A stretch of DNA of 20,769 nt from a virus. How positions within the stretch are numbered: position 1 is the stretch's first letter; each line of letters opens with the position of its first letter. The translations under genes and the position numbers were made by a program. Location of the stretch: the IMG/VR virus record IMGVR_UViG_3300046777_000866, positions 1 to 20,769 of that record. One strand, written 5' to 3'. The notes under the pieces were generated by a model that made no database searches, was not told where the DNA came from, and was given only the letters and a program-made list of their open reading frames with translations. Shown piece by piece: positions 3,163 through 10,868 of the stretch.

Positions 3163-3570
3163 TTATAAGTGTTTGACTAATTCAATACATCTATCTTGGG
3201 TTTGGATGTATCCTGTATTCTTATATTTTTGTACTAATGACTTATTAAAAACAGTAGCCCACATTACCCTTGCACCCATAATCTTAGCTAATTGGCTAAT
3301 TGTTTCTATTAAAAATTCTATTGCTTGGCCTCTATCTTTCTCTCTGTAGTTGTAATTAGATACAACAAATTCACAAAAAGCAATATCAGAATTAGTCTGA
3401 TACAAGTACCCAGCACATATATCGGTATCTCCTTTTGATACCATCACCCCACCAACACCATTCTCTGCTAAACTTGACCGAGGAGGAATCTCTCCGCCCC
3501 AATCTGTCCACCACCCTTTGAGTGTATTGTCGTAATCTTCTTCTCGAAGTTTACGTGCATTAAATTCCAT
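3163..3570 (-). CDS. GNAT-family N-acetyltransferase
   Basis: The 135-residue protein starts MEFNARKLREEDYDN. I chose ATG at 3570; a TTG two codons upstream (3576) also keeps the frame open, but ATG is preferred. The pattern fits a small GNAT acetyl-CoA-dependent acetyltransferase. There is a beta-bulge region with GGVMVSKGDTDICAGYLY, then FVVSNYNYREKDRGQAIEFLIETIS matching GNAT motif A (R-x-x-x-R-G, where the acetyl-CoA pyrophosphate loop would sit). The final ATVFNKSLVQKYKNTGYIQ is the usual GNAT motif B (N-x-x-x-x-x-x-Y-x-x-x-G-[FY]). The substrate is unknown. It sits between a tail protein gene and an internal virion protein gene, so a virion protein or a host protein could be the target. 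Such acetyltransferases recur in phage late regions; the target here is not deducible. Confidence 0.8.
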   Translation of the reverse strand: MEFNARKLREEDYDNTLKGWWTDWGGEIPPRSSLAENGVGGVMVSKGDTDICAGYLYQTNSDIAFCEFVVSNYNYREKDRGQAIEFLIETISQLAKIMGARVMWATVFNKSLVQKYKNTGYIQTQDRCIELVKHL

Positions 3571-3588
3571 TTGCAAATATAATTAAAA

Positions 3589-4320
3589 TTAAGGGTAACT
3601 CTGAAAAACATCAGATGTTATCATAAATATTTCACTATAATCGTAATCTTCATTTTCAAAATACACCTCCAAATAAGTACCTCTTGTCGGGTATGACTCA
3701 GCTTCACTATTCTTCATGTATAGAATAAAGCTACCATTTGTTGGAGGTGTACCTGTTGGGTTAATGGTAATAGTATTATTACTATGAGCTGTTATTGTGC
3801 CAGCCAAAGTAAGAACACCTGCATTTAACCAATATAATTTATCGCCATCACTTATAATGCTACCTACATTAAATGTAAAGGTTAAAACTCCTGCGTTATA
3901 AGTTGTTACGTTTCCTACTCCTTGAGCTGATATCATTGATACAGATGCATCATCTTCATTTCGTCTAATATATGCATACCATGTACCTTCTTTAAACTCG
4001 TATTGATCAGCTTGAATATGACCTTTACCTTGGTCAGATGTGATTACTGTTTCCCAGGATGAAGTCGAATTAGTTGCAATCGTTTTAAATTGCTTAGTTT
4101 GATATGGCTCGTTATTAAATATAGTTGTTATTGCAGATTTATGATGTATATCATAGTAAGTATTTCTTGATGGATTTTGATTGTGCTTATACAAGTTACC
4201 ATTCTTAAAAGTATATAAGAAATTATTCATCATTGTCATCCACTCAGGTTGGTAGGAATGAAATGATGTCCAGCCATTATCAGCATCCGAGAAACTTAAT
4301 GTATAATTTAGCTCTGCCAT
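3589..4320 (-). CDS. Tail protein, likely the detached C-terminal part of the stabilization-type tail protein
   Basis: The 243-residue protein starts MAELNYTLSFSDADNGWTSF. The series GWTSFHSYQPEWM (16-28), NNFLYTFKNGNLYKHN (32-47) and ITSDVFQSYP at the end matches, as I remember them, the C-terminal part of the giant tail 'stabilization' protein in crAss-like and related phages. There it directly follows the section found near residue 1065 of the 1522-residue protein in this window. Residues 133-203 form a probable beta-barrel insert (GVGNVTTYNAGVL to GSFILYMKN) between HIQADQYEFKEGTWYAYIRR and the terminal strands. It lies 24 nt after the radical SAM stop and 12 nt before the nearest possible GNAT start. 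I infer a structural tail role, possibly assembling with the 1522-residue product in trans. Confidence 0.82.
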   Translation of the reverse strand: MAELNYTLSFSDADNGWTSFHSYQPEWMTMMNNFLYTFKNGNLYKHNQNPSRNTYYDIHHKSAITTIFNNEPYQTKQFKTIATNSTSSWETVITSDQGKGHIQADQYEFKEGTWYAYIRRNEDDASVSMISAQGVGNVTTYNAGVLTFTFNVGSIISDGDKLYWLNAGVLTLAGTITAHSNNTITINPTGTPPTNGSFILYMKNSEAESYPTRGTYLEVYFENEDYDYSEIFMITSDVFQSYP

Positions 4321-4327
4321 ATAGTTA

Positions 4328-4356
4328 CAAAGTTACATATTTATTTATTCTTCAAA
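4328..4356 (-). promoter_or_regulatory. Weak candidate Bacteroidetes-type promoter before the 243-residue tail gene
   Basis: On the minus strand TTTG (4353-4356) and TAACTTTG (4328-4335) are separated by 17 nt, within the loose spacing reported for Flavobacterium-type promoters (TTG, then TAnnTTTG). The box ends only 7 nt before the ATG, so the transcript would be nearly leaderless. The match could be chance in AT-rich DNA. Confidence 0.2.
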
Positions 4357-5376
4357 TATAGCTGACGCACAATTTCTGCAAATAGTATTATATGATTCTT
4401 CTATTTTTTTTATATGGTCTTCTTTGCCCCAGAAATCACATAATTCTTGAGTCTTAAAGTCTCCAAATTTAACTTCAAAATCATAATCATTGCAGCATAA
4501 AAAAGCTTCGCCATTAGCATTTATATGTATCCAACCAATTGGTCTTCCACCAACTTCTCTTCCATTACCACACATAACAACCTTCTTGCTATCATCTCGC
4601 TTCATTAAATAGTTTCCTATAGCATCTTTATTAGATATAACATCATCTAGCAATCCTGCCCTATCAATTAAAGATGGGACACTAAAGATTTGAACTTCTG
4701 GAAATAATTCTTTAGCCAAATTAAATTGAGTTGCAAGTTCACCAGTCGCTACATCAGTATTAATATCAACGGGGAAATTATTACCTTTTTCAATCCAACC
4801 CCCACGCTCCCTAAATGAATTATCATTAACCCCATTTATTTGGATGGAGAGCGATTTATTTTGAACCATTAATGGTAACTTCTCAATTGCATATTTTATG
4901 TTATCTATGAGGCGATCAAATAATTTTATGTTTACGCCTGCACGTTTACTCCATGTCTCAGCTTCAAACGCAGGTACATTTAAACAAATACCATTAATTA
5001 CATCTTTGTACTCCGCAATTAAGTCTATCTTTTCCTTTGTCAAAGGAATACCATTAGTCAAAACCATTGTACATAATCTATATTTTCTACATATTTGCAA
5101 AAACTCTTCAAAATGTTTATAAAGAAGAATTTCATTGTAATGTGCTGTATAAAATCCACCAAAGTGTTTATGAACTAATCCATCCTCTTTATCTCTCTCA
5201 TCTACAATGTTTTTGATTATTTTTTCTAAAAGTTCAACAGACATTGTATTTTTCCCATCATCTGGATTGCCTCTATATTTAACAGGGCAAAACCAACACT
5301 TAGCATTACAAACCCCAAAAGGGTCTAGTTGCATTTGATGTATTTTAAATTTATTAAACTCTTCTCTTAAATTCAT
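4345..5376 (-). CDS. Radical SAM protein with a SPASM-like C-terminal domain
   Basis: The 343-residue protein carries the radical SAM cluster motif C-x3-C-x2-C at Cys23, Cys27 and Cys30 (DPFGVCNAKCWFCPVKY), which would bind the [4Fe-4S] cluster that cleaves S-adenosylmethionine. The barrel follows (GGFYTAHYNE near 73-82, VLTNGIPLT near 105-113, where GGE-like and strand-end positions are expected). The C-terminus resembles a SPASM/Twitch domain holding auxiliary Fe-S clusters: Cys269, the GEAFLCCNDYD block with Cys294 and Cys295, then Cys313, Cys333 and Cys336 (CRNC). SPASM enzymes commonly modify peptides, though some act on sugars or other small molecules. Its ATG overlaps the glycosyltransferase stop (ATGA), so the two are translationally coupled. 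Target unknown; the neighbouring Thr-rich tail protein or a sugar precursor are the obvious candidates. Confidence 0.88.
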   Translation of the reverse strand: MNLREEFNKFKIHQMQLDPFGVCNAKCWFCPVKYRGNPDDGKNTMSVELLEKIIKNIVDERDKEDGLVHKHFGGFYTAHYNEILLYKHFEEFLQICRKYRLCTMVLTNGIPLTKEKIDLIAEYKDVINGICLNVPAFEAETWSKRAGVNIKLFDRLIDNIKYAIEKLPLMVQNKSLSIQINGVNDNSFRERGGWIEKGNNFPVDINTDVATGELATQFNLAKELFPEVQIFSVPSLIDRAGLLDDVISNKDAIGNYLMKRDDSKKVVMCGNGREVGGRPIGWIHINANGEAFLCCNDYDFEVKFGDFKTQELCDFWGKEDHIKKIEESYNTICRNCASAIFEE

Positions 5377-6284
5377 AAATATTGTTTTACTAATTCATAA
5401 TACTTACTACTGCAACTATTAGGTGCAATTACTAAATCTTTAGGAGGTGGCCCTTGTTGATATAATGCTTTATAAAACATGCCTTCTTTGTCGGTAGTCA
5501 CTCCTGCATTGTGCATGATATTATATTTATCCCACGCATCAATATAACTAGTACCCCATGCAAATTGTAAGTCTTCATGGCATAAGGTTGTGAATCCTCT
5601 TTTCCAAGCAGTCCATAATAAACCCCACATATCTGCTGTCCATATTTGTAATTCATGATATGTTGGATTATTTTGTTTTAATGAAACGTTTAATTTAGTT
5701 ATTTCCCTAAATAACGTCTCAGATAAAGTCTCAACTTCCTGCCAAAACGAAGAGTCCACTTGCTTCATTAGGTATTGAGCACCAATAGAGTGATCCTCAT
5801 TTAACCTGATAATCTCTGGATGTATTTGTGCTAAGTCACACATGGTTTGTAGCACCACATCACCCTTTGAAGCAATATAATCATGGCCAACATACCACTT
5901 GCAATCACTACCATACCATTTGTTATTATTTAAAAATTGGTTCCAATCAATTGGCTTGGTAAATACCATATCGCAATCGTGGTAAAATATTGCTTCATTA
6001 AACAATTCAGGATAAGCCAAGAAGTGTTTCTTAAGAATATGTGGCCTAATTGTACTGATATAAGTTACAGCACCTCGTGTATCGTCATAAAAGAAAAACC
6101 TAACATAGTTGTATTTACTTGCTAGGTCTGACCATGCTTGTGGAACTTTGCCATCTATCTTGGCACATACGATGTCGATATTATTTGGATTAATTCCAAC
6201 TGACATGAAATTTTTAATCATTACTTCAACCTGCCACAAGTAATACGGTGTAGCAGGTTGGGCACATACAAATCTTAGATTCAT
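5373..6284 (-). CDS. GT-A-fold glycosyltransferase with DxD motif
   Basis: The 303-residue protein has the layout of a nucleotide-sugar-dependent GT-A glycosyltransferase. The N-terminal Rossmann-like half begins MNLRFVCAQP. The metal/nucleotide-binding DxD is at Asp103 and Asp105 inside EAIFYHDCDMVFTKP. GAQYLMKQ (168-175), WTADMWGLLW (215-224) and IMHNAGV (256-262, where the His could be a late metal ligand) look like acceptor-side and C-terminal catalytic motifs. There is no signal peptide or membrane helix, so it is cytosolic. The sequence recalls peptidyl glycosyltransferases of the plant GT95/GT96 type, which would fit a protein acceptor; this resemblance is from memory and tentative. 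It starts 15 nt after the stop of the tail protein with threonine tracts and overlaps the radical SAM gene by 4 nt. A role in glycosylating the tail is inferred from context. Confidence 0.82.
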   Translation of the reverse strand: MNLRFVCAQPATPYYLWQVEVMIKNFMSVGINPNNIDIVCAKIDGKVPQAWSDLASKYNYVRFFFYDDTRGAVTYISTIRPHILKKHFLAYPELFNEAIFYHDCDMVFTKPIDWNQFLNNNKWYGSDCKWYVGHDYIASKGDVVLQTMCDLAQIHPEIIRLNEDHSIGAQYLMKQVDSSFWQEVETLSETLFREITKLNVSLKQNNPTYHELQIWTADMWGLLWTAWKRGFTTLCHEDLQFAWGTSYIDAWDKYNIMHNAGVTTDKEGMFYKALYQQGPPPKDLVIAPNSCSSKYYELVKQYL

Positions 6285-6299
6285 TTTATTTTATTTTAT

Positions 6300-9200
6300 T
6301 TAAGCTGGACATCCTGTTTGTCCTGTTGCTGTTATTGCAAATTGTGACCCACCTGGATCGGTTGTAAGTACATTACTAATATAGAATGTTGATACTCCAA
6401 TTGTAACCCTATCATTCAACGCAAAATCTCCTGCTGTATAAGCAATCGAATATGTTATTTGTGAAGTTACACAATTTGTTAATTCATACCAAACAGTTTG
6501 CAAGGTAGTTGTTGTAGTTGTACTTGTCGTTGTAGTTGTTGGCTTAGAAGCACAAGCTAATTCACAAGTATTATATGCTGGCAAAGTTAATATGTCTGCT
6601 GGACCTGGAGTTTGACCAGTGTCGGTAATCTTATAGACATAATTATTTGTAGACACTTCATTATAGAATCTATTAGGGATTACTACAGTTCCTATGTCGA
6701 ATTTAACTAATAGTCCTGTTGCTACAGGAGTAGTACAATCACCACACAAATATTGGTCAGCTAAATAGAAGTCATATGGCAACACTGTAGTCGTAGTTGT
6801 AGTTGTTGTGGTAGTTGTCGTATCTCCTGGACATCCAGTCAAACCAGTAGATGTAATCGCAAATTGTGATCCACCTGGATCAACTGTTAATACATCTGTT
6901 ATTTTAAATGTTGATGCCCCGATAGTTACTCTATCATTTAAAGCAAAATCTCCAGCTATATATGAAATAGAATAAGTTATTTGAGATGTTGTACAATTTG
7001 TCAACTCATACCAAACAGTTTGTAAAGTAGTTGTTGAAGTTGTTGTTGTGGTTGTTGTAGGCTGATTAGCACAAGCTAATTCACAAGTATTATACGCTGG
7101 ACTAACTAATATATATGCTATGCCTGGAGCTTGACCAGTATCGGTTATTTCATACACATAATTACTTCCACCTGATTCGTTATAAAATCTAGCTGGAATT
7201 ACAGTAGTTCCAGAAATAAATTTAACTAAAATCCCTGTAGCATATGGAGTCGTGCAATCGCCACATAAATATTGATTTGCCAAATAGTAATCATATGTAG
7301 GAGCTATTGTAGTAGTAGTCGTTGTAGTAGTAGTTGTCGTTGTGGTAGTAGTAGTTGTCGTTGTGGTAGTCGTAGTTCCTGCGGCTTGTGTAATATTAAT
7401 TGTATACGTTGTATTATCGCATCCACGAACCGTAACACTAGTAGCACGATATGCACCAGGATATGGATTAGCCTCTACTTCAACTTGAATAGTTTGGCTT
7501 GTATTTCCGAATCTAGTTGGGATAGTTATCCAATCAACAGTTGGCTCAGAAATATACCACTCCGCATTTGAGGTAATAATAATATTAAATGTACTAGCAG
7601 ATTGTGTAGCATTTATAGAAGTTGTACTAACATTAAAAATACACTCCTTAACTTTCGTATCATTGCCCGATAAAATATAATGTTCAAAATAAGGGTCCAT
7701 CATTCCTAACTTCTGTGTATTAACATCTAAGTTAGCCTTGAACCAGTTCTTCATTCCAAGTGATGAAATTTCAAATAGTCCATTACCACCAAGTTTCATT
7801 ACAGCCCCTCTTCTTGTGTCGGTAAAGAATAATGTATCACCCCAACGAGTAAAGCTCTCAGGATTCAAACTAATACCATATTCACCAGTATATGCAATTT
7901 GAGTACCTAGTACCTCTGGAATAGAAGCAATAGTACCCCCACCAACTGAGTCGCTTAATAAGTTTTTGCCATATAAAACTTTTGAAACTTTATTTTCTTG
8001 GAATACAACCAAGTCAGTATCTCTTGCATGCAACTTTTGAATAGATCCAAAAAATCTATCTAAGTATTTAAAGTTGCCCTGAGATAAATTAAATTCATTT
8101 AATCTATTAATTGCACTAACCTGAGTATAAATACCACTATAAGTTAATGCTTGTACTAATGTTTGTTGCTCGTATCCTTCAACCGTCGCATTAGCCCTTG
8201 GGCTATATTGCATAGTTGCTGCATTGAAATCATCTTTAATACGGTAGCTTTCAATACCATTCCCAAATGCAAACGCATTAAAATCTTTATTTGGATATGC
8301 TATGGTAGAATAGTTTAACTTAACAACACCATTAGTACCAGAAGTTTGATTAGTAAAGTTTGTTTGATGATACCCCCCAACAATTGGAAAAGTTTTTGAT
8401 AACTCATAATAAATATCTTGGCTATTTTGAACACCTTCTGTTTCAAAATAAATTGGACTCTCAACTATCTTCAAATCAAATGAACAAACTAAAAAATCAC
8501 CACTACCAGCAAATTCTGTATTCATATACATGAACATTGGAAATGCTAATGTAGTAGGAGATATAGAAGTACCTTGACTTATTTGAGCAAATCCAGTACC
8601 TTGAACATAATTTTCTCCTCGCCTAAAAGTTATTCTTTTTGCTCTTATTTGTCCATTAGCTGAATTAAACTGATTCCAAGTATTATAAATTTGATCTTCA
8701 TAAAACCATTCTTCTATATTGCTATATGTGCTACTAGAAACAAATGATTGTATAATATCCGTATTAGCTCCACCAGTTTCTTTATAAGTAAAAGTTAGAA
8801 TAGATCCAGCAGTAATAGGTTCGAATGTGTTATTCCAATTAGGCCCAGTAAAAAAAGCCCACATTTGATTGATAGCACAAATCTGACCACCATTAGGATT
8901 TTCACCAGTAGCATTACTAGTACGGCAATTTATTACCCAATAGTTACCTAATTGATGACCTGTTGTAGCAGCAAACTTAACACTACAACTATTACCATCA
9001 TATGATAATGTTATACTACTAGATGTAATTGGGTTGTTTTGGCTAACTAATGTTTTATATAATCCATTATATGTAACATATACCTTATATGTATCAACTA
9101 CACCAACATGATCTATTTCAACATAAAATCTAGCATCATTTGATCCTGTATAAGCATTTGATGCTTGAACACTTAAATCATTTAATCCTTGCCCATAAAA

Positions 9201-10868
9201 TATTGAGTTTTCTGCTACATTAAATCTATTCGAAACAGGCACTTCACTCCATGTAGCAAATGTAGCACCATCAGAAGTACCTTGATATAAAGATATGTCA
9301 GGTAAAACAGATGAATCTATTTTTATTTTAAAATAAATCCCAGCAGGTTGAACTTCACTGTTATTTAAAAAATTTGCTGATTTTGATACAATATCTAATA
9401 CTTTATACTGAGTATCTGTATTACTTGTTGGTGACTTTAAATATATGTAATCTCCAGTAGTTATTTTATCTTGGTCAGCTTGATTAATTAAAAACCATCT
9501 AAATTGACCATCACTAAAATATATTAAAGGAAATAAATTATAATAATCTCCTCTATTTTGTTTTATTACAAATCTATAACTAGTTGCAAAACATGGTGGC
9601 TTATATCCTTTATCAATTGTTACAACTAAATCATTTGACTTTGTCGCATCAGAAGGACTAATGAATTTTGTATTTGAGTGCAAGTTAGTATCTGTAGGAA
9701 CAATTACCGTAGATGATCTACCATAATCATCAAGATAAATAATACCAACTTCGTAATCCCTGTTACTTTTAAACGTAGGCATAGGGACATTCCCAGCTAT
9801 TGCTGTAGATTCGTAATCTAAAGAAAATTTTGGATTTATTACATTTCCATCACAATCTATTAAATTATAAAATTGCGTATAATTTCCGTACACTAACCTG
9901 CTTCCAATTAAATCTTGAGCCTTAGCCTTCAAAGGAACATTGTCAAATGTCCTGGCAATTTGTTCGGCTGGCAATACAGTATAAACCTTACTATTATTAA
10001 ATAGATATGATTCGTTAGTATTATCTGAATAACCAAGTAATGATTTGTCTAAGTTATCAATAATGTATGCATTTAGATTTAATGTATCTCTAAACACTAA
10101 TTGAATCTCTTTTACATTTGGTCCACCTGTATTAAACCCAATTGTAGCAGTATTGAAATCATTGACCATGGAAACGTTTTCTGAAACGCCATAATCATAT
10201 TTGAAATTCTCAGGATAAAAAGCTACAGGAGAGAATGGTGACAAAGCACTGTACTCATTATCTAAATATTTGTATCTATAAGCAAAATAGAGAAATCGAT
10301 CTTTTAAATTATTTGTTTCTCCAACTGTACTTAATGTAATTGAGGGAGATGAAATAGGAGGTTTCATTATTAAATTAATGTCAGCCTCAGTAAATCCATC
10401 TACAGCATAATTCTTACATCTCTCGATGTTTATTTTTCTTGGAGGATTATAATTATCCGTCCAAAATAAAAGTCCATTTAAATAATTTATTCCTGTTACA
10501 ATATATTGCTTGTTAAAATTAAGCAATGATGGTGTAGTAGGTGTTAACTTTGATGCTTTTAAAACTACTGTAGTAATATCTTCTGCCTCATTGTATTCAT
10601 AAATGGCATCACATTCATCAGCGGCTACAAGCCAGTAAATGATATTATGTGCTTCATTCGATAACGCACCAATACATGTGGCATTAGTCAATCCGATTGA
10701 CGCATTCATTTGAATGTTTCCCAAATAATTTTGAGCAACACCCTCATGAGATCCTTCGGAATCTAACACAACCATGTTCAACGCATCACGGTATTGACCA
10801 TCAGGAAGAAAATGGGGGTCTGTGTCCTTGTTCATAACCCCCTTTAAAAAATTTCTTTGTAATTCCAT
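6300..10868 (-). CDS. Giant tail (stabilization-type) protein with BACON-like domain and Thr-tract modular C-terminus
   Basis: This 1522-residue protein starts MELQRNFLKGVMNKDTDPHF. Residues 1 to about 1070 match the large tail 'stabilization' protein type of crAss-like and related Bacteroidetes phages (LPDGQYRDALN near the start; FQENKVSKVLYG and GGNGLFEISSLGMKNWF near the end). Residues about 1072-1161 form a BACON-like domain: Ile/Val-rich strands, SNAEWYISEPTVDWITIP, VEVEANPYPGAYRATSVTV and TINITQ. Then follow Thr23 (1165-1187), module A (1188-1270), a Thr/Ser tract (1271-1281), module B (1282-1349), Thr12 (1350-1361), A' (1362-1443), a Thr/Ser tract (1444-1455) and B' (1456-1522). A modules have four Cys (YLCGDC, NTCELAC); B modules have two. 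I infer a surface-exposed, stalk-and-bead adhesive extension on a tail component. The ATG overlaps the upstream stop (TAATG). Confidence 0.9.
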   Translation of the reverse strand: MELQRNFLKGVMNKDTDPHFLPDGQYRDALNMVVLDSEGSHEGVAQNYLGNIQMNASIGLTNATCIGALSNEAHNIIYWLVAADECDAIYEYNEAEDITTVVLKASKLTPTTPSLLNFNKQYIVTGINYLNGLLFWTDNYNPPRKINIERCKNYAVDGFTEADINLIMKPPISSPSITLSTVGETNNLKDRFLYFAYRYKYLDNEYSALSPFSPVAFYPENFKYDYGVSENVSMVNDFNTATIGFNTGGPNVKEIQLVFRDTLNLNAYIIDNLDKSLLGYSDNTNESYLFNNSKVYTVLPAEQIARTFDNVPLKAKAQDLIGSRLVYGNYTQFYNLIDCDGNVINPKFSLDYESTAIAGNVPMPTFKSNRDYEVGIIYLDDYGRSSTVIVPTDTNLHSNTKFISPSDATKSNDLVVTIDKGYKPPCFATSYRFVIKQNRGDYYNLFPLIYFSDGQFRWFLINQADQDKITTGDYIYLKSPTSNTDTQYKVLDIVSKSANFLNNSEVQPAGIYFKIKIDSSVLPDISLYQGTSDGATFATWSEVPVSNRFNVAENSIFYGQGLNDLSVQASNAYTGSNDARFYVEIDHVGVVDTYKVYVTYNGLYKTLVSQNNPITSSSITLSYDGNSCSVKFAATTGHQLGNYWVINCRTSNATGENPNGGQICAINQMWAFFTGPNWNNTFEPITAGSILTFTYKETGGANTDIIQSFVSSSTYSNIEEWFYEDQIYNTWNQFNSANGQIRAKRITFRRGENYVQGTGFAQISQGTSISPTTLAFPMFMYMNTEFAGSGDFLVCSFDLKIVESPIYFETEGVQNSQDIYYELSKTFPIVGGYHQTNFTNQTSGTNGVVKLNYSTIAYPNKDFNAFAFGNGIESYRIKDDFNAATMQYSPRANATVEGYEQQTLVQALTYSGIYTQVSAINRLNEFNLSQGNFKYLDRFFGSIQKLHARDTDLVVFQENKVSKVLYGKNLLSDSVGGGTIASIPEVLGTQIAYTGEYGISLNPESFTRWGDTLFFTDTRRGAVMKLGGNGLFEISSLGMKNWFKANLDVNTQKLGMMDPYFEHYILSGNDTKVKECIFNVSTTSINATQSASTFNIIITSNAEWYISEPTVDWITIPTRFGNTSQTIQVEVEANPYPGAYRATSVTVRGCDNTTYTINITQAAGTTTTTTTTTTTTTTTTTTTTTTTIAPTYDYYLANQYLCGDCTTPYATGILVKFISGTTVIPARFYNESGGSNYVYEITDTGQAPGIAYILVSPAYNTCELACANQPTTTTTTTSTTTLQTVWYELTNCTTSQITYSISYIAGDFALNDRVTIGASTFKITDVLTVDPGGSQFAITSTGLTGCPGDTTTTTTTTTTTTVLPYDFYLADQYLCGDCTTPVATGLLVKFDIGTVVIPNRFYNEVSTNNYVYKITDTGQTPGPADILTLPAYNTCELACASKPTTTTTSTTTTTTLQTVWYELTNCVTSQITYSIAYTAGDFALNDRVTIGVSTFYISNVLTTDPGGSQFAITATGQTGCPA
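6504..6539 (-). repeat. Threonine tract 4 (11 Thr, 1 Ser)
   Basis: Twelve consecutive codons are ACN except one AGT serine, and they link modules A' and B' of the tail protein. ACA, ACC, ACG and ACT all occur, so the amino acid is conserved while the bases vary. Confidence 0.9.
6786..6821 (-). repeat. Threonine tract 3 (12 Thr)
   Basis: Twelve uninterrupted ACN codons separate module B from module A'. All four Thr codons are used, in a different order from the other tracts. Confidence 0.9.
7026..7058 (-). repeat. Threonine tract 2 (10 Thr, 1 Ser)
   Basis: Eleven codons, seven Thr, one Ser (TCA) and three Thr, link module A to module B. This is the counterpart of tract 4. Confidence 0.9.
7308..7376 (-). 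repeat. Threonine tract 1 (23 Thr) containing a perfect 21-nt tandem duplication
   Basis: Twenty-three consecutive ACN codons join the BACON-like domain to module A. Within it, 7324-7344 and 7345-7365 are identical 21-nt units in direct tandem, with degenerate partial copies on both sides. The period is seven codons, so gain or loss of a unit would keep the frame and change only stalk length. Confidence 0.93.

Follow-up and report, generated by a model that had tools for sequence, protein, structure and literature searches.

A 20,769-base IMG/VR virus record (IMGVR_UViG_3300046777_000866, positions 1 to 20,769; hereafter the window, meaning this whole stretch) raises the question of why a giant virion protein with threonine (Thr) tracts is followed at once by a glycosyltransferase (GT) gene and a radical SAM/SPASM gene, and whether the two enzymes act on the tracts. 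The genes belong to a minus-strand structural module that reads terminase (phrog_6681), portal, capsid, two ring-like proteins, a 1522-amino-acid (aa) protein, GT, radical SAM enzyme and muzzle C-domain protein. Based on comparison of these genes with their relatives, we propose that the window probably holds a phage-encoded virion glycosylation cassette, inserted in the muzzle gene of a crassvirus-like phage. The features concerned are the following.

7668..10868, minus strand: muzzle-like N-terminal part of the 1522-aa virion protein (about aa 1-1067)
6300..7667, minus strand: C-terminal extension of the 1522-aa protein (about aa 1068-1522), without counterpart in phage phi38:1
7308..7376, minus strand: Thr tract 1, 23 Thr, aa 1165-1187
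7026..7058, minus strand: Thr tract 2, 10 Thr and 1 Ser, aa 1271-1281
6786..6821, minus strand: Thr tract 3, 12 Thr, aa 1350-1361
6504..6539, minus strand: Thr tract 4, 11 Thr and 1 Ser, aa 1444-1455
5373..6284, minus strand: GT-A glycosyltransferase, phrog_4417 ("prophage pi2 protein 34"), proposed Thr-tract O-glycosyltransferase
4345..5376, minus strand: radical SAM/SPASM enzyme (PF04055 and PF13186), proposed accessory modifier of the glycoprotein
3589..4320, minus strand: separate muzzle C-terminal domain, crAss_MUZ_C

The open reading frame (ORF) of the 1522-aa protein spans 6300-10868. Its four C-terminal tracts total 56 Thr and 2 Ser, with the positions and composition given in a preliminary description of this DNA that was made from the letters alone, and are written in mixed codons (ACA, ACT, ACC and ACG). 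The longest run, 23 Thr, compares with a maximum of 8 and a mean of 3.3 in 2000 shuffled sequences of equal composition. The gene arrangement given there also proved correct: 15 nucleotides (nt; 6285-6299) separate the stop of this ORF from the GT, whose DxD motif is D103-C-D105, and the ATG of the radical SAM gene, with its CxxxCxxC motif (C23/C27/C30) and SPASM-like C-terminus, overlaps the GT stop (ATGA). The carrier had been taken for an adhesin, and this was not supported. The phrog_14478 profile matches it with an E value of 1.5e-206, and its residues 1-1066 align with residues 2-1072 of gp097 of Cellulophaga phage phi38:1 (36% identity). For gp097 residues 1078-1323 the counterpart is the small protein encoded downstream (E 4e-33), which also matches PF25729, crAss_MUZ_C (E 1.3e-11). 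Since both halves align to a single gp097, one continuous muzzle there corresponds to two proteins here, and by these alignments the carrier is a crassvirus-type muzzle homologue, not a generic adhesin. Between the two halves, inside the virion module, lie a 456-residue extension, the GT gene and the radical SAM gene. The extension begins with a domain that appears BACON/immunoglobulin-like by eye and has no Pfam match, and it alternates the Thr tracts with two kinds of Cys-containing repeat, YYLANQYLCGDC... and WYELTNC.... Since the hosts of the nearest isolates are Cellulophaga, Flavobacterium, Maribacter and Tenacibaculum, this phage probably has its host among the Bacteroidota.

The phrog_4417 profile matches the GT over its full length (residues 4-301, E 4.8e-63). 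D103, D105 and H258 are invariant, the two aspartates across 21 sequences. No Pfam family matches the protein, and a phmmer search of the PDB returned noise only. Its AlphaFold2 model (predicted local distance difference test, pLDDT, 94.6) has a GT-A fold, and the best PDB matches are glycogenin (Z 14.8, root-mean-square deviation 3.4 over 222 residues), LgtC (14.3), Skp1 alpha-galactosyltransferase (14.1) and UGGT (13.8), which are effectively tied; the likeness to CAZy family GT8 (glycogenin/LgtC) is by fold only. The model thus identifies the product as a GT-A glycosyltransferase, predicted to be metal-dependent in the mechanism proposed below. The substrates are proteins or glycoproteins for glycogenin and UGGT and lipooligosaccharide for LgtC, so the acceptor does not follow from the fold.

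To see what accompanies this enzyme, we examined 29 IMG/VR loci selected by the GT alone, of which two begin at the GT and 27 have readable flanks. A Thr-tract gene adjoins the GT in 26 of the 27 (22 upstream, 4 downstream). A tblastn search retrieved 74 named-phage records with the GT, mostly phages of lactic acid bacteria, enterococci and staphylococci; among 15 sampled, 13 have Thr tracts at most 300 nt upstream of the GT or on the preceding gene. Most of these tracts stand at the very C-terminus of a major capsid or major tail protein, with 1-5 residues between tract and stop. In several phages the capsid and tail proteins share the same ending. Specifically, the non-homologous capsid and tail proteins of phage 1706 share an HHD tag (...TTTTTTTTTHHD and ...TTTTTTTTTTHHD), those of phage iLp84 both end in ...TTTTTTTSK, those of phage R3.3 end in ...TSSHA and ...TSHA (an SHA tag), and an RHD tag is common to both in phage bIL285. 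In a set of 60 GT loci with enough flank, which includes loci chosen by poly-Thr and in which some carriers are short ORFs, the tract gene is immediately upstream in 49, mostly less than 80 nt away. The carriers in GT loci form 21 groups without similarity beyond the tracts, and those beside relatives of the GT include muzzles, tail fibres, major tail proteins and capsid proteins. The genes that follow the GT elsewhere encode Mannosyl_trans3, GT2-, GT25- and GT29-type enzymes and a methyltransferase. A conserved first GT followed by variable enzymes would fit the initiation and extension of an O-glycan.

A separate arrangement was seen in Enterococcus phage Planchet, Lactococcus phage bIL285, Staphylococcus phage SA2 and Arcanobacterium phage TPWB06, where a Thr-rich ORF in another frame directly follows the capsid or major tail gene. 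Such ORFs lie at 4778-4870 of locus L136, 4956-4973 of L137, 3667-3930 of L140 and 5720-5926 of L146, and look as if a frameshift tags some copies of the protein with Thr.

The close relatives of the carrier itself show whether GT and tracts go together. We retrieved 48 IMG/VR loci whose muzzle shows about 60% identity, and in 37 the next genes could be read. The GT is absent from 29 of these, and all 29 lack Thr tracts; in nearly all of them the C-domain follows within about 30 nt, and short linkers free of Thr runs connect the shared repeats. In the other eight the GT lies between muzzle and C-domain, and six of the eight have strong Thr tracts, the two weaker being L116, with TTTIAPTTT-type repeats, and L121, with a few PTT repeats. 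Fisher's test of GT against tracts gives p = 1.2e-5, a value that overstates independence given the muzzle tree, on which three changes in the GT and three in Thr-richness suffice; L116, with GT and Thr-rich, is sister to L134, which has neither. Because the tree needs so few changes, Fisher values are not used as a main argument here.

The converse comparison started from the tracts. A scan for at least 12 Thr codons, blind to neighbouring genes, gave 95 usable loci, and an equivalent scan for Ala gave 98. The GT profile is present in 12 of the 95 poly-Thr loci vs none of the 98 poly-Ala loci, and a radical SAM gene paired with a PF11397 GT, the combination described below, is present in 2 of 95 vs 0 of 98. 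Furthermore, phrog_4417 is the commonest PHROG family in the two genes downstream of poly-Thr genes (10 of 108 proteins), several further GT families also lie downstream of such genes, and no GT family is found among the 25 commonest Pfam families listed for the poly-Ala set. Together with the 21 unrelated carrier groups, the joint gain and loss among muzzle relatives and the GT-A fold, these negative poly-Ala controls strongly support the earlier suggestion of a link between the GT and the Thr tracts.

The radical SAM enzyme exceeds the curated Pfam cut-offs for both Radical_SAM (PF04055, E 2.2e-12) and SPASM (PF13186, E 3.7e-7). C23, C27 and C30 are invariant in its relatives, as are five C-terminal cysteines (C269, C294, C295, C333 and C336; 27 sequences), enough for one auxiliary cluster, where a seven-Cys SPASM domain would hold two. 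Its model (pLDDT 82) is matched best by BtrN (Z 16.2), ChlB (15.5) and anSME (15.1), which lie within about 1 Z unit and are effectively tied, with DesII at 14.2; BtrN is the only PDB match by phmmer (E 0.001). No NCBIfam peptide-maturase equivalog cut-off is reached, the best being TIGR04321, spiroSPASM, at 38.6 bits vs a cut-off of 250, and tblastn with this protein found no match in 50,697 phage records. Among the 29 GT loci, five (L058-L062, 68-73% identity) have the radical SAM gene; the overlap with the GT is as in the window in three of the five contigs, and a mannosyltransferase-like gene lies between in two. Since only 5 of 29 GT loci carry it, the radical SAM enzyme appears from its distribution to be an optional partner of the GT. 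In one of the five, L061, the GT and radical SAM pair stands downstream of a subtilase-like protein (6625-8517) with Thr tracts near its C-terminus.

In none of the 56 loci collected by means of the radical SAM enzyme did phrog_4417 or the structural genes of the window occur. We considered this absence as evidence against the pairing and dropped the argument, as the GT-selected loci show the pair in five contigs. In the radical SAM loci, distant relatives of the enzyme (42-53%) recur in a second cassette with the order Thr-rich fibre, 145-aa protein, DUF6171 protein, radical SAM enzyme and PF11397 GT (E 1.9e-34), often with a GalE-like epimerase. The Thr-rich fibre is just upstream in nearly all loci with enough flank, and the PF11397 GT is present in nearly all; in L157, L180 and L182 the radical SAM gene is missing while fibre and PF11397 GT are kept. 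The carriers are of two kinds, fibres with T runs and fibres with (PT)n repeats. Among non-redundant tract loci, (PT)n repeats occur in 11 of 12 with a 2-oxoglutarate (2OG)-Fe(II) oxygenase vs 0 of 17 without (Fisher 3.5e-7, not corrected for kinship). The closest relatives from Deltaproteobacteria (39-41%) combine a PF11397 GT and this radical SAM/SPASM enzyme in one fused protein of 622 aa. The window itself has neither a PF11397 GT nor a 2OG prolyl hydroxylase, which occur only in the loci of the radical SAM relatives. The second cassette and the fusions are good evidence that the radical SAM enzyme works with glycosyltransferases. The part assigned to it in tract modification by the preliminary description is thereby upheld as an association, with Thr-rich fibres, another GT and a bacterial fusion, and not as a constant partnership. 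Of the co-occurrence expected of tracts and both enzymes, the half concerning the GT held, in that this GT is rarely seen without Thr tracts. The radical SAM gene, by contrast, is missing from most tract loci, whether or not they carry the GT.

Several further features of these loci were recorded. Long (PT)n fibres with a 2OG-Fe(II) oxygenase gene (L035, L037, L038, L041, L044, L045 and L053) resemble hydroxyproline-rich glycoproteins. The Deltaproteobacterial fusions, of N-acetylglucosamine (GlcNAc) transferase and radical SAM/SPASM type, lie at 4086-5951 of L427, 4083-5948 of L428 and 2252-4117 of L429. Two Thr-rich fibres (L031 3402-6398 and L158 5520-8069) end, by eye, in a Hint-like (intein/hedgehog-type) sequence, which suggests self-processing. 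In L020 (4715-5746), and also in L019, FFPFFPPFF repeats take the place of Thr tracts upstream of the radical SAM gene.

A number of observations weigh against a glycosylation cassette. L063, the sole exception among the 27 readable loci, has its GT beside a DNA methylase; phages 521B and LP65 have distant GTs and no adjacent tract; and L121 carries the GT yet has PTT-type repeats only. The muzzle-family pattern is clean, but the three changes on the tree mean that few independent events lie behind it. At most random poly-Thr loci none of the three modelled enzyme families is found, and as most poly-Thr genes have no recognised GT neighbour, a tract alone does not predict a cassette. The Deltaproteobacterial fusion adjoins pentapeptide-repeat genes, not Thr tracts, and a SPASM domain with five conserved cysteines is as compatible with a small-molecule substrate as with a peptide.

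Starting from the observed gene content, adjacency, co-occurrence and fold class, we infer an acceptor, a sugar transfer, an order of steps, a radical SAM chemistry and a benefit. The Thr tracts on the muzzle extension would be the acceptor. Before the virion is assembled, and still in the host cytoplasm, the Thr hydroxyls would receive a first sugar from the phrog_4417 GT. The radical SAM/SPASM enzyme would then modify the glycosylated tract, on the sugar or on the peptide, and so fill the place that second GTs, methyltransferases or sialyltransferase-like enzymes have downstream of the GT in other phages. The result would be a stiff, mucin-like tail stalk, which could shield the tail or bind glycans on the host surface. 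The step we hold most firmly, and judge quite likely from the gene associations, is that the GT acts on the Thr tracts; that the radical SAM enzyme acts on the same glycoprotein is somewhat favoured by the same kind of evidence, and neither sugar nor peptide as its substrate reaches an even chance. More broadly, and tentatively, a tract-and-enzyme code for glycoprotein stalks and tags can be imagined, with a chance just short of even, in which poly-Thr goes with a phrog_4417 or PF11397 GT, (PT)n goes with a 2-oxoglutarate (prolyl-hydroxylase-like) oxygenase, and the radical SAM enzyme creates, on the virion, a modified sugar or glyco-amino acid of a new chemical kind.

The alternative that survives best is a special case of this scheme, in which the attached sugar is what the radical SAM enzyme changes, by oxidation, epimerisation or otherwise, much as BtrN and DesII act on sugar-like substrates. 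BtrN is both the top structural match and the sole phmmer match, DesII scores well (Z 14.2), a fusion of GT and radical SAM enzyme exists, and the enzyme accompanies two unrelated GT families and both T runs and (PT)n tracts, which makes the sugar the common denominator; the gap of about 1 Z to the peptide maturases is, however, a tie, and SPASM family members act mostly on peptides, so that we regard this as a real possibility that falls somewhat below an even chance. It is unlikely that the radical SAM enzyme is instead a peptide maturase that acts, independently of glycosylation, on the Cys-containing repeats between the tracts to form thioether or similar cross-links. The closest folds do include maturases of ribosomally synthesised and post-translationally modified peptides (RiPPs), namely ChlB, SuiB and SkfB, and there are carriers with Cys-rich repeats and ends. 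However, Cys-containing carriers also occur with the GT and without a radical SAM gene, for which reason we rank cross-linking low; moreover, close muzzle relatives retain the window's Cys repeats, without Thr tracts and without either enzyme, the partner in the bacterial fusion is a GT, and no peptide-maturase equivalog was found at cut-off. Least probable of all is that the GT targets the host envelope or phage DNA as a defence against superinfection or restriction, its place in the tail region being incidental and the Thr tracts independently arisen flexible linkers: this is the usual published reading of GT-bearing phages (lipopolysaccharide (LPS) modification, PMC7029224; DNA protection, PMC10202952 and, for VPE25, PMC4999554) and agrees with the closeness of the fold to LgtC and other glycan-modifying GT8-type enzymes and with the methylase neighbour in L063, but the GT also directly follows major capsid and major tail genes that end in Thr tracts in lactococcal, enterococcal and lactobacillar phages, not only variable fibre regions, tract and GT are gained and lost jointly among muzzle relatives, and poly-Ala tracts have no such neighbour.

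Beyond the cassette, a small protein after the muzzle C-domain (3163-3576, phrog_17252) appears N-acetyltransferase-like by eye; its position is conserved among muzzle relatives and apparently in phi38:1 too.

If the glycosylation reading is right, virion glycosylation would be no speciality of mycobacteriophages and would be a common modular trait that extends to phages of Bacteroidota, of Bacillota and of many uncultured groups. The phrog_4417 family, whose function is unknown, would gain one, and Thr runs beside a phrog_4417 GT would become a sequence signature that predicts glycosylated virions. Radical SAM chemistry would join virion maturation, and a new reading might apply to many phage GTs whose present annotation is DNA or LPS modification. 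The cultured dairy phages permit direct testing of Thr-tract glycosylation.

Glycosylation of mycobacteriophage virions was reportedly described by Freeman et al. in Cell Host Microbe in 2023 (doi 10.1016/j.chom.2023.05.028). The preliminary description knew of no example of such a system; for glycosylation alone this does not stand, as PMC12619734 (and also PMC12894461) reports that mycobacteriophage GTs glycosylate the C-termini of capsid and tail-tube subunits. The link of Thr tracts to a GT and the radical SAM partner appear new: no description of either, or of the (PT)n link, was found in open-licence literature, which is weak evidence of absence, and tblastn with the window GT gave no mycobacteriophage among its matches. 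Compared with known systems, the muzzle resembles gp097 of phi38:1 in that its N-terminal part and separate C-domain align with it end to end, and differs in that gp097 is one continuous protein without extension, tracts or enzymes. The radical SAM enzyme shares its core and SPASM-like C-terminus with BtrN, anSME and the RiPP SPASM enzymes, its nearest solved folds, at only 10-17% identity and without reaching an equivalog cut-off. The glycosylation of hydroxyproline in Skp1, by a 2OG prolyl hydroxylase and a PF11397 GlcNAc transferase, has its parallel in the loci of the radical SAM relatives, which share the PF11397 GT and, at (PT)n fibres, a 2OG-Fe(II) oxygenase; the phage loci differ from the Skp1 pathway by their radical SAM enzyme and their Thr-rich fibres. 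Finally, the capsid and tail-tube C-termini that serve as acceptors in mycobacteriophages are matched by the C-terminal Thr tags of those same proteins beside Gram-positive relatives of the window GT, and the system in the window is set apart from the mycobacteriophage one by its recognisable poly-Thr acceptor, its muzzle carrier and its added radical SAM enzyme.

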